DNA from: Rhizobiaceae bacterium
GTDB lineage: Bacteria; Pseudomonadota; Alphaproteobacteria; Rhizobiales; Rhizobiaceae
Reading direction: 5' to 3'
Assembly: GCA_025458045.1 (NCBI GenBank)
Contig: JALOTE010000005.1
Location: forward strand, 1 to 59,670
DNA length: 59,670 bases
Shown: piece after piece, positions 9,090-57,675 of the stretch
How the letters are laid out: every line of letters begins with the position of its first letter
Position numbering within the stretch: position 1 is the first letter of the stretch
Translations under genes and position numbers: made by a program
The notes under the pieces: generated by a model
Databases searched by the model: none
What the model was told of the DNA's origin: nothing
Seen by the model: only the letters and a program-made list of their open reading frames with translations

Positions 9090-9124
9090 ACGGCCAAGAC
9101 GCAAGACAAGCCAAACGGTACCAG

Positions 9125-9153
9125 AGCCCGGCCGTCGCGCCGGGCTTTTTTTG
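9125..9153 (+). terminator. Rho-independent terminator of the L,D-transpeptidase gene
   Basis: AGCCCGGC (9125-9132) pairs with GCCGGGCT (9139-9146), 6-base loop, followed by a run of seven T. Located 36 bases past the stop codon. Confidence 0.85.
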
Positions 9154-9157
9154 CCGC

Positions 9158-9341
9158 ATCTCGGTTTGAACACCGCTTTTTTTGATTGTTCTTCGCTCCT
9201 GCTTCGAGGCTTTTTGCCTTCATGGTGAGGTGGGAGCACAAGCGACCCTCGAACCACGAGGCAAAAACCTCCTCAGCCTGAAGGCAAAAGCCGGAGCAGT
9301 GGCCGACCCTCAACCCGTGAAGAGCGGATTTCAAGCTGGGA
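9158..9341. repeat. Dispersed palindromic element, copy 1
   Basis: This fills most of the 331-base gap before glyA. The left end (9158-9176, ATCTCGGTTTGAACACCGC) is inverted at the right end (9324-9341, CGGATTTCAAGCTGGGA). Inside are the shared blocks GCTTCGAGGCTTTTTGCC and CTTCATGGTGAGG, and their inverted counterparts. It resembles copies at 15266, 20252, 40631 and 43861. It encodes no plausible protein. Because it lies directly upstream, the glyA promoter is either inside it or in the 80 bases after it. Confidence 0.7.
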
Positions 9342-9420
9342 CACCGCCAGTTTTTGTCGCGTTGGACAGGCGGTCGCGCCATGCTAAAGGCGCGCGCATC
9401 CGCATTTCAAGGAATCGACC

Positions 9421-15205: not shown

Positions 15206-15265
15206 GAGTTTGCGATCGGTCGTCTCCCGGTTTCAACGCCCGATTTGCCCAAGGTTTTAACCGCT

Positions 15266-15353
15266 TCGTCCTTCGAGGCCTTTTCCTTCATGCTGAGGTG
15301 CCTGCTTTGCGAGCCTCGAAGCACGAAGGGAAAAAGCACCTCAGGATGAAGGG
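15266..15353. repeat. Dispersed palindromic element, copy 2 (core)
   Basis: Contains CGTCCTTCGAGGCC, CTTCATGCTGAGGTGC, and the inverted counterparts GCCTCGAAGCACGAAGG and GCACCTCAGGATGAAG, so the core folds back on itself. The outer ends seen in copies 1 and 4 are eroded here. With the following promoter and leader hairpin it accounts for the 318-base gap between the MFS gene and hppA. Confidence 0.7.
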
Positions 15354-15390
15354 GATGAAAGACCGAGACATTGCCGCCAAACCATCCAAC

Positions 15391-20233: not shown

Positions 20234-20251
20234 GGCGAATGGTCAGCAGTA

Positions 20252-20367
20252 TCTTCGTTTGAAATCCTCGTCATCCTGAGGTGCCTTTTTGCTCGTGCTT
20301 CGAGGCTCGCTCTGTTCGCACGCCAACATGAAGGCAAAACGCCTCGAAAGACGGATTTCAAACAGAG
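20252..20367. repeat. Dispersed palindromic element, copy 3
   Basis: Ends are TTTGAAATCC (20258-20267) and its inverse GGATTTCAAA (20353-20362). Inside is TCATCCTGAGGTGCC followed by GTGCTTCGAGGCTCG and CATGAAGGCAAAACGCCTCGA, the same blocks as in other copies but rearranged in reverse order. It occupies the DUF177-plsX gap. Confidence 0.7.
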
Positions 20368-20494
20368 GCATGGCTGCATTTTGGGCGCAACCCAAACGAA
20401 GTTTGCCCAGAAAATCATCCTTTGGGCCTTCTTTTGCCGGAACACGCGGGCTAGAAGCGCAACCGGCATTCCGGCCCTGATCGAGGAAGCGGGT

Positions 20495-39527: not shown

Positions 39528-39616
39528 GGCGAAATCCTTTTCAGATCATGGTGTTGGGTCGGGTGGCGGAATCGGTTCGCAATGCGGTTGACACAAGAGT
39601 TCAACACGCTGTCGTT

Positions 39617-40588
39617 TCAGCGTCGTCGCTGTGCCAGCAATCCAATGCAATGTTGCGCCACGCTTGCCCCCGCAATCGCCGTGATGTCGGCATGGTCGTA
39701 AGCCGGTGCGACTTCTACCACATCCGCCCCCACCATTTGCAAGTTCTTCAGATGGCGCAGTACCGACAGCATCTTGGCGCTCGACGGTCCGCCTGCCACC
39801 GGCGTGCCGGTGCCCGGCGCATAGGCCGGATCAAGGCAATCAATGTCAAAGGTAATGTAACACTTCGCCCCGCCGACGCGCGCATAGATGCGCTCGGCGA
39901 CTTGCGTGGCCGTCATGTCTTCGACGTCATATCCATGCAGGATGTCAACGCCGCATGTGTCCGGCGCATGGGTGCGGATGCCGATCTGGATCGAGCGCGC
40001 GGTGTCGACCAGCCCCTCGCGCGCGGCGCGGGTGAGGAACGCTCCGTGGTCGATGCGTTTGCCGTCATCCGGCCAAGTGTCCTGATGGGCATCGAAGTGC
40101 ACAAGCGCCAACGGGCCGTGTTTTGCCGCATGCGCCTTCAGCAAGGGATAGGTGATCGAATGGTCGCCGCCGAGCGTCAGCAGGAATTGCCCGCCCTTGA
40201 TGAGCTTTGCTGCTTCCTTCTCGATGATCCCGTAAATCTTTTCCGGCTGGCCGTAATCCCAGCGCATGTCGCCATAATCGATGACGTTCAACGTCTCGAA
40301 CAGGTCGGCATGGAACGGATATTGCGGATCATTGTCAAAGATCGCCGAAGCACGACGGATCGCCTGCGGGCCGAACCGGCTGCCCGGACGGTTCGAGACG
40401 GCGGCATCAAACGGAATGCCCCAGACGACAACATCGGCGCCCGCGACGTTTTTGGTGTAGCGCCGCCGCATAAAGGACAGGGCCCCGGCATAGGTCGGGT
40501 CCGAGGCCGCGCGGTCATTCTTCGCGGTGAAGGCATTGTCGATGGATTTTCCGGCCAATGGGGCGTCCTCCGGCTGCGCGCCGCACAT
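39617..40588 (-). CDS. speB: Agmatinase
   Basis: Ureohydrolase converting agmatine to putrescine and urea. 323 residues from ATG 40588. Binuclear Mn site: His in LGGDHSITYPLL, Asp/His/Asp in HFDAHQDTW, two Asp in FDIDCLDPAYAPGTG. The N-terminal CGAQPEDAP segment is unusual compared with homologues that begin near KSIDNAFTAKN, so the true start may be a later non-ATG codon. It could also be guanidinobutyrase; the sequence does not decide. Confidence 0.9.
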   Translation of the reverse strand: MCGAQPEDAPLAGKSIDNAFTAKNDRAASDPTYAGALSFMRRRYTKNVAGADVVVWGIPFDAAVSNRPGSRFGPQAIRRASAIFDNDPQYPFHADLFETLNVIDYGDMRWDYGQPEKIYGIIEKEAAKLIKGGQFLLTLGGDHSITYPLLKAHAAKHGPLALVHFDAHQDTWPDDGKRIDHGAFLTRAAREGLVDTARSIQIGIRTHAPDTCGVDILHGYDVEDMTATQVAERIYARVGGAKCYITFDIDCLDPAYAPGTGTPVAGGPSSAKMLSVLRHLKNLQMVGADVVEVAPAYDHADITAIAGASVAQHCIGLLAQRRR

Positions 40589-40630
40589 GCCACGGCAAAC
40601 CGGGCAAAGGAAGGGGGTGGATCGGTCGTG

Positions 40631-40675
40631 TCCCAGTTTGGAATCCGTCCATCGAGGCTTTTTCCTCCATGCTGA
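40631..40675. repeat. Dispersed palindromic element, copy 5 (left half only)
   Basis: TCCCAGTTTGGAATCC followed by GTCCATCGAGGCTTTTTCC and CTCCATGCTGA matches the left half of copy 4; the right half is missing. It lies in the 100-base gap between dinB and the agmatinase gene, just upstream of the latter. Confidence 0.6.
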
Positions 40676-40688
40676 ACCAGCAGCCGCG

Positions 40689-41984
40689 CTACTGCCCGCG
40701 TTTGCCGCGGCCGAATGTGTAGCCGGTTTCCACCGCTTTGCCGCCGAACTTCCCGCGCAGCGCATCCACCGCCAGTTCCGCCTTGGCCCGCTTTGCGGCC
40801 GTGATGTCCACGAGGTCGGCGGGATCGGCACGGGCGTCGTCCTCAAGGTCCGAGACCCCGATGCCGACCAGGCGGAACAGCGTGCCGTCGATCTCGCGCT
40901 CCAGCAGCGCCAGCCCGGCGCGGAAGATGCGGTCGGCGAGCTGTGTCGGGTCGGCAAGTGACAAGGCCCGCGTGCGGCTCTTGAAGTCGCGCGTCTTGAG
41001 CTTGAGAGTGACCGTGCGGCCAGAAAGCGCCTGTGTCTTCAACCGCGCCGAAACCTCTTCGGCAAGTGCGCGCAGCGGCGGCACAAGGTCGTCGCGGGTT
41101 CCAAGATCATCGTTGAATGTTGTCTCGGCGGACACGCTTTTCGTGTCGTGGCCGGTCGCAACCTTGCGGTCATCTTCGCCGCGCGCGAGGTGGTAGAGGC
41201 GCTGGCCCATCGCACCGTGACGGCGCATCAGGCTTGAGAGGTCCATCTCCTGCAACTGTCCGATGGTGCGGATGCCATCTTTCTCCAGCGCCGCATCAAG
41301 GGCAGGGCCGACGCCCCAGATCTTGCGCACCGGCATCGGCGCGAGCCGCGCCACGGACTCGGCGCGCCCGATGATGGAAAAGCCGCGCGGCTTGTCGAGG
41401 TCGGAGGCGAGCTTGGCGAGAAATTTGCAGTAGCTGAGACCAACGGACACGCTGATGCCGATCTCCGTCTCGATGCGCTTGGCCATGCGGGCGAGCGCGA
41501 TCGCCGGGCTCGCCTGGTGCAGCAATTGCGTGCCTGTGAGGTCGAGAAAGGCCTCGTCGATGGAAACGGGCTCGACGAGCGGCGTCAGATCCAGCATCAG
41601 CGCGCGCACATCGCGGCCGACGCGGGCATATTTCGCCATGTCCGGCTTGATGACCACGGCCTGCGGACAGGCGGCCAGCGCCTTGAACATCGGCATCGCC
41701 GACTTCACGCCATGGATGCGCGCAATGTAGCAAGCCGTTGAGACGACTCCGCGTTTGCCGCCGCCGATGATCACCGGCTTGTCACGCAGTTCCGGATTGT
41801 CGCGCTTTTCAACGGCGGCATAGAAGGCGTCACAGTCGATGTGTGCGATGGAAAGCGCGTCCCGCTCGGCATGGGCGAGCAGGCGCGGCGAGCCGCAAGT
41901 CGCGCAGCGGGTTGCATTGTCTGTCGAGAAGCCCAGGCAATCCCGGCAGAAGGGGCGAAAGGACAGGGGTGCGGTTGCGCCCAT
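40689..41984 (-). CDS. dinB: DNA polymerase IV (DinB) with an N-terminal zinc finger
   Basis: Y-family translesion polymerase, 431 residues. Palm motifs [14 protein letters not shown] and SIDEAFLD hold the catalytic acids. Before the palm, about 40 extra residues carry FCRDCLGF and RCATCGSPR, a four-cysteine zinc-finger pair absent from E. coli DinB. The C-terminus has a basic tail ([11 protein letters not shown]) and no clear clamp-binding motif was identified. It follows radC by seven bases on the same strand. Confidence 0.94.
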
Positions 41985-43766: not shown

Positions 43767-43860
43767 TGCTCGCTTTTCCCGGCCGTCGGCGTGGAAGCCA
43801 CGCAAATTCCTATATGCACCCGGAAGAGCCCGCCCGCAACGCGACACGATGCACAGTGGT

Positions 43861-44015
43861 ATCCCGGTTTGAAATCCGTCCTTCGAGGCTTTTTTCCTTC
43901 ATGCTGAGGGTCCGTCTTCAGGACGGGCGAGACCCGTGGCTCGCCCTATGCGCTTGCGGGCCTCGAAGCGCGAGGGAAAAAGCACCTCAGGATGAAGTGG
44001 ATTTCAAACCGGGAT
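43861..44015. repeat. Dispersed palindromic element, copy 4 (most complete)
   Basis: A 155-base element with perfect 17-bp terminal inverted repeats: ATCCCGGTTTGAAATCC (43861-43877) and its inverse (43999-44015). Internally CCTTCGAGGC and CTTCATGCTGAGG face GCCTCGAAGCG and CACCTCAGGATGAAG; the centre has a second stem (GTCCGTCTTCAGGACGGGC). It fills most of the 308-base gap between map and tRNA-Glu. No flanking target-site duplication was recognised by eye. Confidence 0.8.
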
Positions 44016-44074
44016 CCACCGAACCCACAACGGTCGAAATGCTCGACCGTCGCAATGATGTCTGGGTGGGAGAG

Positions 44075-57553: not shown

Positions 57554-57618
57554 CCCCTGAGCGAAGCGTCGCAAGATCACTGCGCCGACATCGCGTGACA
57601 GGAATCACGCCAGAGGGG
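57554..57618 (-). promoter_or_regulatory. Possible structured leader of the TerC gene
   Basis: On the minus strand CCCCT (57618-57614) can pair with AGGGG (57558-57554), enclosing the hairpin GCGTGA-TTCCTG-TCACGC (57610-57593) and a smaller stem. The closing strand is followed by ATTTTTTC and then the ATG. Other TerC genes carry the yybP-ykoY Mn riboswitch, but I do not recognise its consensus here. Confidence 0.3.
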
Positions 57619-57675
57619 CCCGCCGCAGTCTGATTGAGGTGGGCATGGCCCGCGCTATTTCAAGGCAAGGCCGGA

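Follow-up and report, generated by a model that had tools for sequence, protein, structure and literature searches.

A worn MITE-like repeat family in a Rhizobiaceae genome that appears to set IS1-like transposon ends around a nested, REP-like palindrome

What are the five palindromic repeats that lie dispersed along one contig of a Rhizobiaceae genome, and by what means could they have spread? The stretch analysed here, called the window throughout, comprises 59,670 nucleotides of contig JALOTE010000005.1 and belongs to a genome assembly of 3,019,997 bases in 179 contigs that is 93.8% complete. An earlier note, made from the letters of the window, had described the five repeats as related copies of a decaying MITE-like or REP-like family, and had proposed a genome search for further copies, a covariance model, and searches for target-site duplications, for an insertion sequence with matching ends and for a REP-associated tyrosine transposase. 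Related sequence was present at all five places, with a full core in four of them, and the copies are related rather than alike by chance. A blastn search of the genome with the copy at 43861–44015 (copy 5) gave at least 56 matches (40 of 128 candidates scored) with E values from 2.4e-76 to 2.1e-4, an 18-base end pattern allowing up to 3 mismatches occurred 57 times compared with 0 for its reversed control, and a covariance model of the core worked well enough to give, from the 150 of 1887 candidates that were scored, at least 134 matches with E values no higher than 0.01, a number that also counts opposite-strand matches at the same places. Further copies were thus found by all three routes. 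The supposedly dense spacing of five copies in 60 kb proved unremarkable: the 98 copies classified below correspond, over 3.02 Mb, to about 1 per 31 kb, and the window holds 4 full copies in 60 kb. We consider it highly probable that the copies in the window belong, in worn form, to a MITE family in which the ends of an IS1-like transposon surround a REP-like core, so that both halves of the earlier description were apt, a MITE shell being wrapped around a REP-like nested core.

The places first given for the copies were right, and the true ends of copies 1, 2, 3 and 5 lie outside the limits first drawn (Table 1). The perfect 17-bp terminal inverted repeats (TIRs) that had been assigned to copy 4 belong instead to the copy at 43861–44015; copy 4 is the half copy. 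Pfam-supported open reading frames (ORFs) adjoin all five copies, on both sides in three of the five, and the neighbours with Pfam matches comprise an L,D-transpeptidase, a serine hydroxymethyltransferase, an MFS transporter, a proton pyrophosphatase, YceD, a fatty-acid synthesis protein, a Y-family polymerase and an M24 peptidase. Copy 5 is placed between the M24 peptidase gene and a tRNA-Glu, both on the minus strand, and copy 4 immediately downstream of the gene for the Y-family polymerase (ORF 40689–41984, minus strand). As to the statement that all copies lie in gaps, genes adjoin each of them; copy 4 overlaps ORF 39548–40675, for which a Pfam search gave no match. The codon-position GC of this ORF (0.73/0.48/0.63) differs from that of seven of the eight Pfam-supported ORFs compared and is close to that of the eighth, YceD (0.73/0.48/0.68); copy 4 therefore may or may not sit in the end of a gene. 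A terminator-like GC hairpin followed by a T run (9124–9152) abuts the left end of copy 1. A terC RNA motif was found at 57576–57631 on the minus strand of the window, with 45.5 bits compared with an Rfam gathering score of 39.9.

Table 1. Positions of the five repeat copies in the window and of the parts of copy 5
Feature	Position	Strand	Description
Copy 1	9152–9348	+	MITE; left TIR 9152–9174 worn, right TIR 9326–9348 better preserved; core 9198–9283
Copy 2	15218–15375	+	Core 15267–15351; TIRs strongly decayed
Copy 3	20245–20375	−	Short-form MITE in the opposite orientation; core 20269–20353
Copy 4	40624–40675	+	Left half only, consisting of a TIR and the left arm of the core
Copy 5	43855–44021	+	Long-form MITE; TIRs 43855–43877 and 43999–44021
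Nested core of copy 5	43877–43997	+	Outer hairpin, T-run/A-run stem and inner hairpin
Insert in copy 5	43910–43946	+	37 bp in the loop of the inner hairpin; defines the long form

To delimit the shell, TIR pairs were collected from the window and from 50 loci of the genome, 37 of which had been picked through a match to copy 5 and 13 through the end pattern. Among the 38 inward-facing pairs found, 5 were overlapping alternatives and were dropped, leaving 33 pairs with 66 ends. Alignment of these ends revealed that conservation begins 5 bases before TGTCTCAG and is lost outside that point, which gives the shell a pair of 23-bp TIRs, GGYNGTGTCTCAGTTTGAAATCC. Exactly outside them lie 8-bp direct repeats, with a mean identity of 56% at one register over the 33 pairs, compared with a mean of 35% and a maximum of 41% in 500 shuffles that were scored at their best over all offsets; inverted complementarity in the same outer flanks, taken as a control, gave no signal. 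The two 8-mers matched at 8/8 positions in 3 pairs, at 7/8 in 2 and at 6/8 in 8 (13 of 33 at 6/8 or better). In the other 20 pairs they match at no more than 5/8 positions, indicating that the family is old. By this measure the copies of the window count as worn members (copy 1, 5/8; copy 2, which is outside the 33-pair set, 2/8; copy 3, 4/8; copy 5, 0/8), so the target-site duplications sought are clear, at 8 bp, on the better-preserved copies, but weak in the window itself.

Including full TIRs, the 33 pairs span 130–197 bp, which is too short for a transposase. The family thus has the attributes of MITEs: TIRs, a duplication of fixed length, short units present in many copies without a transposase gene, and ends that match those of an autonomous transposon, the last in other genomes. 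A cognate transposase was not found in the 93.8% complete assembly, and a relic family needs none. Rare changes common to both ends of a pair occurred in 7 cells, compared with 1.1 after shuffling (maximum 6 in 2000 shuffles), an excess that fits correction from arm to arm. Two loci at contig borders (L354 and L356, at the end of contig C26 and the start of contig C96) have a near-identical element with near-identical flanks, probably because the region is duplicated or the assembly breaks there.

An insertion sequence with matching ends does exist, so far in other genomes. Scanning a genome collection for GGYNGTGTCYCRGTTTGAAA gave at least 118 stretches, the titles of which name Proteobacteria, Bacteroidota, Acidobacteria, Planctomycetes and others, and, with 3 mismatches or fewer allowed, the 23-base pattern occurred in 86 of 397 genomes of the order, this one included; its reversed control occurred in 2 genomes of the order among the matches listed. 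Ten facing TIR pairs about 2–3.7 kb apart were inspected, and nine contained all or part of a transposase of about 300 amino acids (L153 was without it). A profile built from six of these proteins matched 42 of the 118 TIR stretches, the six sources of the profile included, and 10 of 30 loci of the order. Across the 148 loci from the collection scan and the order scan, 25 TIR pairs enclose the transposase; the 8-bp duplication is perfect in 23 of them, 6/8 in one and 4/8 in one, and the transposons measure 1.0–4.0 kb (2–4 kb in 24 of 25). Short TIR pairs (<500 bp) are also found in other genomes, 17 of them at 16 loci and 8 with a duplication of at least 6/8, so that short pairs with 8-bp duplications of the same transposon type are present across several phyla of bacteria. 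The core model gave no match at 14 of these 16 loci and L144, the loci searched (L130 and L183 were outside the search).

As judged from its sequence, the transposase of the matching transposons is of the IS1-like DDE type. The L183 protein matched DDE_Tnp_IS1 with an E value of 2.1e-7 and 31.8 bits (cut-off 24.1, passed by no single stretch alone) and transpos_IS1 at 1.2e-19, and the L143 transposase reached 21.3 bits for DDE_Tnp_IS1, under the same Pfam cut-off of 24.1. NCBIfam IS1 scores of the L143 and L183 proteins were 63 and 71 bits, respectively, with a cut-off of 100, and an annotation as 'IS1 family transposase' or 'IS1 transposase' is carried by 5 of 15 plasmid matches, among the matches listed. 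No match was obtained with the transposase profile at 119 loci of the own genome and the family, a weak control given that these loci are mostly 1–3 kb long and partly overlap, or by tblastn of the IS1-like transposase against the own genome at E up to 10, a search run without a positive control, the empty outcome of which does not by itself show absence. IS1595 elements make an 8-bp duplication and carry passenger genes; IS1595 as the matching transposon was rejected, the L183 protein scoring 71 bits for IS1 versus 23 bits for IS1595, and a check for the IS1595-related PF12762 found none in the own genome. As passengers of the transposons, Pfam identified a P63C-domain protein (L161) and a Panacea/SocA antitoxin-like protein (L157), and XRE-ImmA/IrrE fusion-like (L120, L183) and HigA-like (L149) proteins were noted by eye. 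A small ORF with RPADVI...GGKARA recurs in the IS1-like transposons, and its L150 copy had no Pfam match.

The core inside the shell is a palindrome of about 85 nt, CGTCCTTCGAGGC-TTTTTC-CCTTCATGCTGAGGTGCGAGC-loop-GCGAGCCTCGAAGCACGAGGG-AAAAAG-CACCTCAGGATGAAG. Read as hairpins, it consists of two REP-like units of opposite orientation, the loop of the outer one being opened to enclose the other; the inner unit is CATGCT-GAGG-TG / CCTC-GA-AGCA, with 2-nt bulges as drawn by hand. Folding gave a z-score of −6.8 when the core was taken by itself, and three complete elements scored between −7.9 and −8.6. When the hand-drawn structure was applied to 27 copies, 87.2% of cells were paired, compared with 41–47% for controls in which the structure had been slid. 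Two-sided changes were found at 12 pairs, compared with 3.8 after shuffling, and in 21 cells, compared with 4.5 (0 of 500 shuffles as high); the structure slid by −1 gave 12 such pairs and 15 cells, and that slid by −2 gave 8 pairs and 20 cells. The compensations include the T-run/A-run arms changed to CCCCATT/AATGGGG, and GTCC/GGAT changed to ATGG/CCAT. In the inner loop stem (alignment columns 39–40 with 49–50), CC/GG-type pairs occur in about 7 of the 27 copies, and most other copies, judged by eye, carry GA on each side, an arrangement that would give tandem G-A mismatches. At four loci (L015, L021, L027 and L119) the CTTC/GAGG bulge is the site of a further palindrome of the CCCCGGATCAAGTCCGGGG type, which makes another level of nesting. 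In the long form, which includes copy 5, the inner tip bears an insert of 37 bp; matches on or across a 27-bp part of this insert (43920–43946) were obtained in 32 of 150 further genomes from the family.

Most aligned cores begin with the CGTC head that marks the CGTC REP superfamily, and the core stem is longer than in the definition of these REPs, and bulged; single units elsewhere include CGTCATCCTGAGG (L295). The GTAG REP/RAYT type was not recognized here, as the ends read CTTCGTCC and PF01797 was not found in the own genome. Nested cores were also found in five genomes from three other families of the order (20, 12, 11, 2 and 1 matches), and the core or its inner unit was matched in 50 of 297 genomes of the order, a count that includes the own genome. 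One record in a plasmid collection matches the core, over 37 bases.

Many cores have no shell. A set of 98 was hand-picked from the covariance matches, leaving out opposite-strand shadows, duplicates and most weak matches, and was classified with a lenient TIR threshold (6 mismatches in 18, within 48 bases): both TIRs were present in 33, doubtfully so in L035, L330 and L351, one in 11 and none in 54. The 33 rows with both TIRs are not identical to the 33 TIR pairs of the duplication test. Flanks were tested for 47 of the 54 shell-less copies, the remainder being 6 atypical copies and 1 that lies at the end of a contig. CTT lies directly left of the core in 34 of the 47, and the usual ends, CCTTCGTCC...GGATGAAGG, define sharp CTT...AAG borders. 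Outside these borders, the left and right flanks of the 34 copies with CTT were complementary in 31, 22, 21 and 22 copies at the first four positions and in 13, 13, 12 and 9 at the next four. At the first position C:G predominates (33 of 47), and this position may be part of the element rather than of the flank; the following three, over all 47 copies, showed complementarity of 62, 53 and 55%, values that 0 of 1000 shuffles reached. The inverted flank is 3–4 bp long and varies in sequence between copies (for example, L319, L326, L328 and L349). A looser measure, the best 8-mer with shifts allowed, gave 4.40, which only equals the largest of 500 shuffles (shuffle mean 4.00), indicating a short, in-register inverted flank. 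Direct repeats of 3, 4, 5, 6, 8 or 9 nt at the 47 copies did not rise above shuffles. Direct repeats at the TIR copies and inverted flanks at the shell-less ones are therefore two different insertion traces in one genome. In other families, inspected by eye only, the inverted flank is absent in f31 and doubtful in f28.

A core match lies inside all 33 TIR pairs, most of which come from loci picked for the core; the 13 loci picked by TIR alone gave 3 ends without a partner and 10 pairs, each of which encloses a core. Among 33 two-TIR copies, 29 have a TIR that abuts the start of the core, with CTT missing, the exceptions being the core at 15267, L027, L015 and L351. In a tree of cores (88 of the 98 rows) MITE and shell-less copies are mixed, with 22 label changes, at least 8 of them forced by starred branches; a stricter tree (61 rows) has 13 label changes, 2 of them forced, and one clade was rejected with p-AU 0.022. 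The mixed trees agree poorly with a capture that happened once and was followed by no exchange, a weak argument because the alignment has 86 columns and conversion between copies is likely.

The simplest history combines an older family of cores with one joining to transposon ends. Ends of an IS1-like transposon would have come to flank an existing core, and the resulting MITE would then have carried the core as a passenger. An IS1-like transposase acting in trans, from an element since lost (or unassembled), would have moved the unit by its ends, cutting or copying the TIR-bounded segment and so spreading it through the genome; at present the family would be immobile. Because no such transposase was found in the own genome, the family resembles a MITE that has been orphaned and is decaying, and mobilization within this genome is something we infer. 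Lying between genes, the hairpin would probably act at most as a 3′-end mRNA hairpin. A more speculative idea, which we think is probably wrong, is that nested palindromes grow by insertion at their tips or centres: the CGTC core would insert into short palindromes without target duplication, a REP into the tip of a REP, the 37-bp element into that tip, and the whole into the centre of the MITE, to be spread by a DDE transposase. The inverted flanks would then be 3–4 bp long and differ from copy to copy because the core inserts in the centres of short palindromes. If true, tip insertion would be a mobilization route for CGTC REPs, through either a tip-targeting enzyme of their own or repeated capture by MITEs.

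The shell-less cores could also be MITEs whose ends have decayed, so that there is one element only, as has likewise been proposed for the small QMITE2 copies of Coxiella. Worn ends can be recognized by eye on some copies classified as having none (L313, L334), copy 2 is a worn intermediate, and the two kinds of core are mixed in the tree. We nevertheless regard decay as an unlikely account, since most shell-less copies have exact ends in common, with CTT in 34 of 47 versus its absence from 29 of 33 two-TIR copies, since complementary flanks of 3–4 bp would not be a product of decay, and since nested cores occur in other families too.

It is very unlikely that the copies are selected RNA or DNA elements (3′-end hairpins, terminators or gyrase sites) kept by function, with their mobile features incidental. 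The stable structure with its compensatory changes would suit such a role, as would the position of the window copies beside genes and not clearly inside them, but the copies vary in shell and insert and include half copies, hairpin-templated repair can also yield compensatory change, and in the whole window Rfam thresholds were reached only by two tRNAs and the terC motif. Movement as a REP-type family by a REP-associated tyrosine transposase, the apparent TIRs being the outermost hairpin stem, we hold to be extremely improbable, even though the whole element folds as one hairpin and many copies are without TIRs or direct repeats. The tyrosine transposase that the earlier note had wanted sought did not turn up: no Y1_Tnp (PF01797) was detected in the own genome by a search that was positive in 5 of 14 control genomes. 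Moreover, the direct repeats of the TIR copies are 8 bp long and keep an exact register, and the same TIRs bound transposons that encode a DDE transposase. HUH transposition is not known to make such direct repeats. For the TIR copies, tyrosine transposition is already a weak explanation.

With a CGTC REP contained in a unit that has DDE-transposon ends and duplications, at least part of its spread has an ordinary cause, and the family shows one way in which hairpin repeats without a known mover can be transported within a bacterial genome. The shell-less copies, with inverted flanks and no direct repeats, are a concrete, testable trace of whatever moves them, and their inverted flank is the most interesting open point. 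Among the titles and abstract openings listed by searches of the open-licence PMC literature we found neither a description of the TIR nor a CGTC REP in an IS1-type MITE, and the name ISMhu11 had no match in that literature.

Several known systems resemble parts of the family. Br-REP1 and Br-REP2 of Bradyrhizobium, in the passages devoted to them, are palindromic intergenic repeats of alphaproteobacteria, as are those described here, and are seen in 3′-end transcripts; unlike the window family, they have different sequences, and those passages mention neither TIRs nor a duplication (PMC5082802). CGTC REPs, according to the defining passages of Di Nocera et al. 2013 (PMC3733652), have a stem of 8–9 bp, a loop of 4–5 bases, AT at the first two stem positions and a CCA tail, are mostly alphaproteobacterial, apparently lack a dedicated transposase and, in H. 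neapolitanus, form dimers within 41-bp palindromes. The window family shares with them the CGTC head, the alphaproteobacterial host, the pairing into palindromes and the mostly intergenic location, but its core is bulged and nested and its stem is longer than 8–9 bp. The IS1-like transposons (L143, L157, L183 and others) have the same TIR sequence and 8-bp duplication, and carry, where examined, a transposase and other ORFs, whereas the window family has neither. The nearest precedent is QMITE2 of Coxiella burnetii, which the passages describing it present as a MITE of 150–190 bp with TIRs and 7–11-nt direct repeats that contains a GTAG REP, in about 50 copies, the smaller of which have no TIRs or direct repeats and look REP-like (PMC5896051); the corresponding passage of a MITE review restates the point on small copies without ends (PMC10969869). 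QMITE2 is likewise a MITE with a REP inside and with smaller copies devoid of TIRs and direct repeats. Its REP, however, is of the GTAG type, whereas the core described here is CGTC-headed and nested; the QMITE2 passages mention no transposon with matching ends, whereas the window family has matching IS1-like transposons; and, in comparison with QMITE2 as presented there (PMC5896051), the shell-less copies of the window family have sharp ends of their own and inverted flanks.
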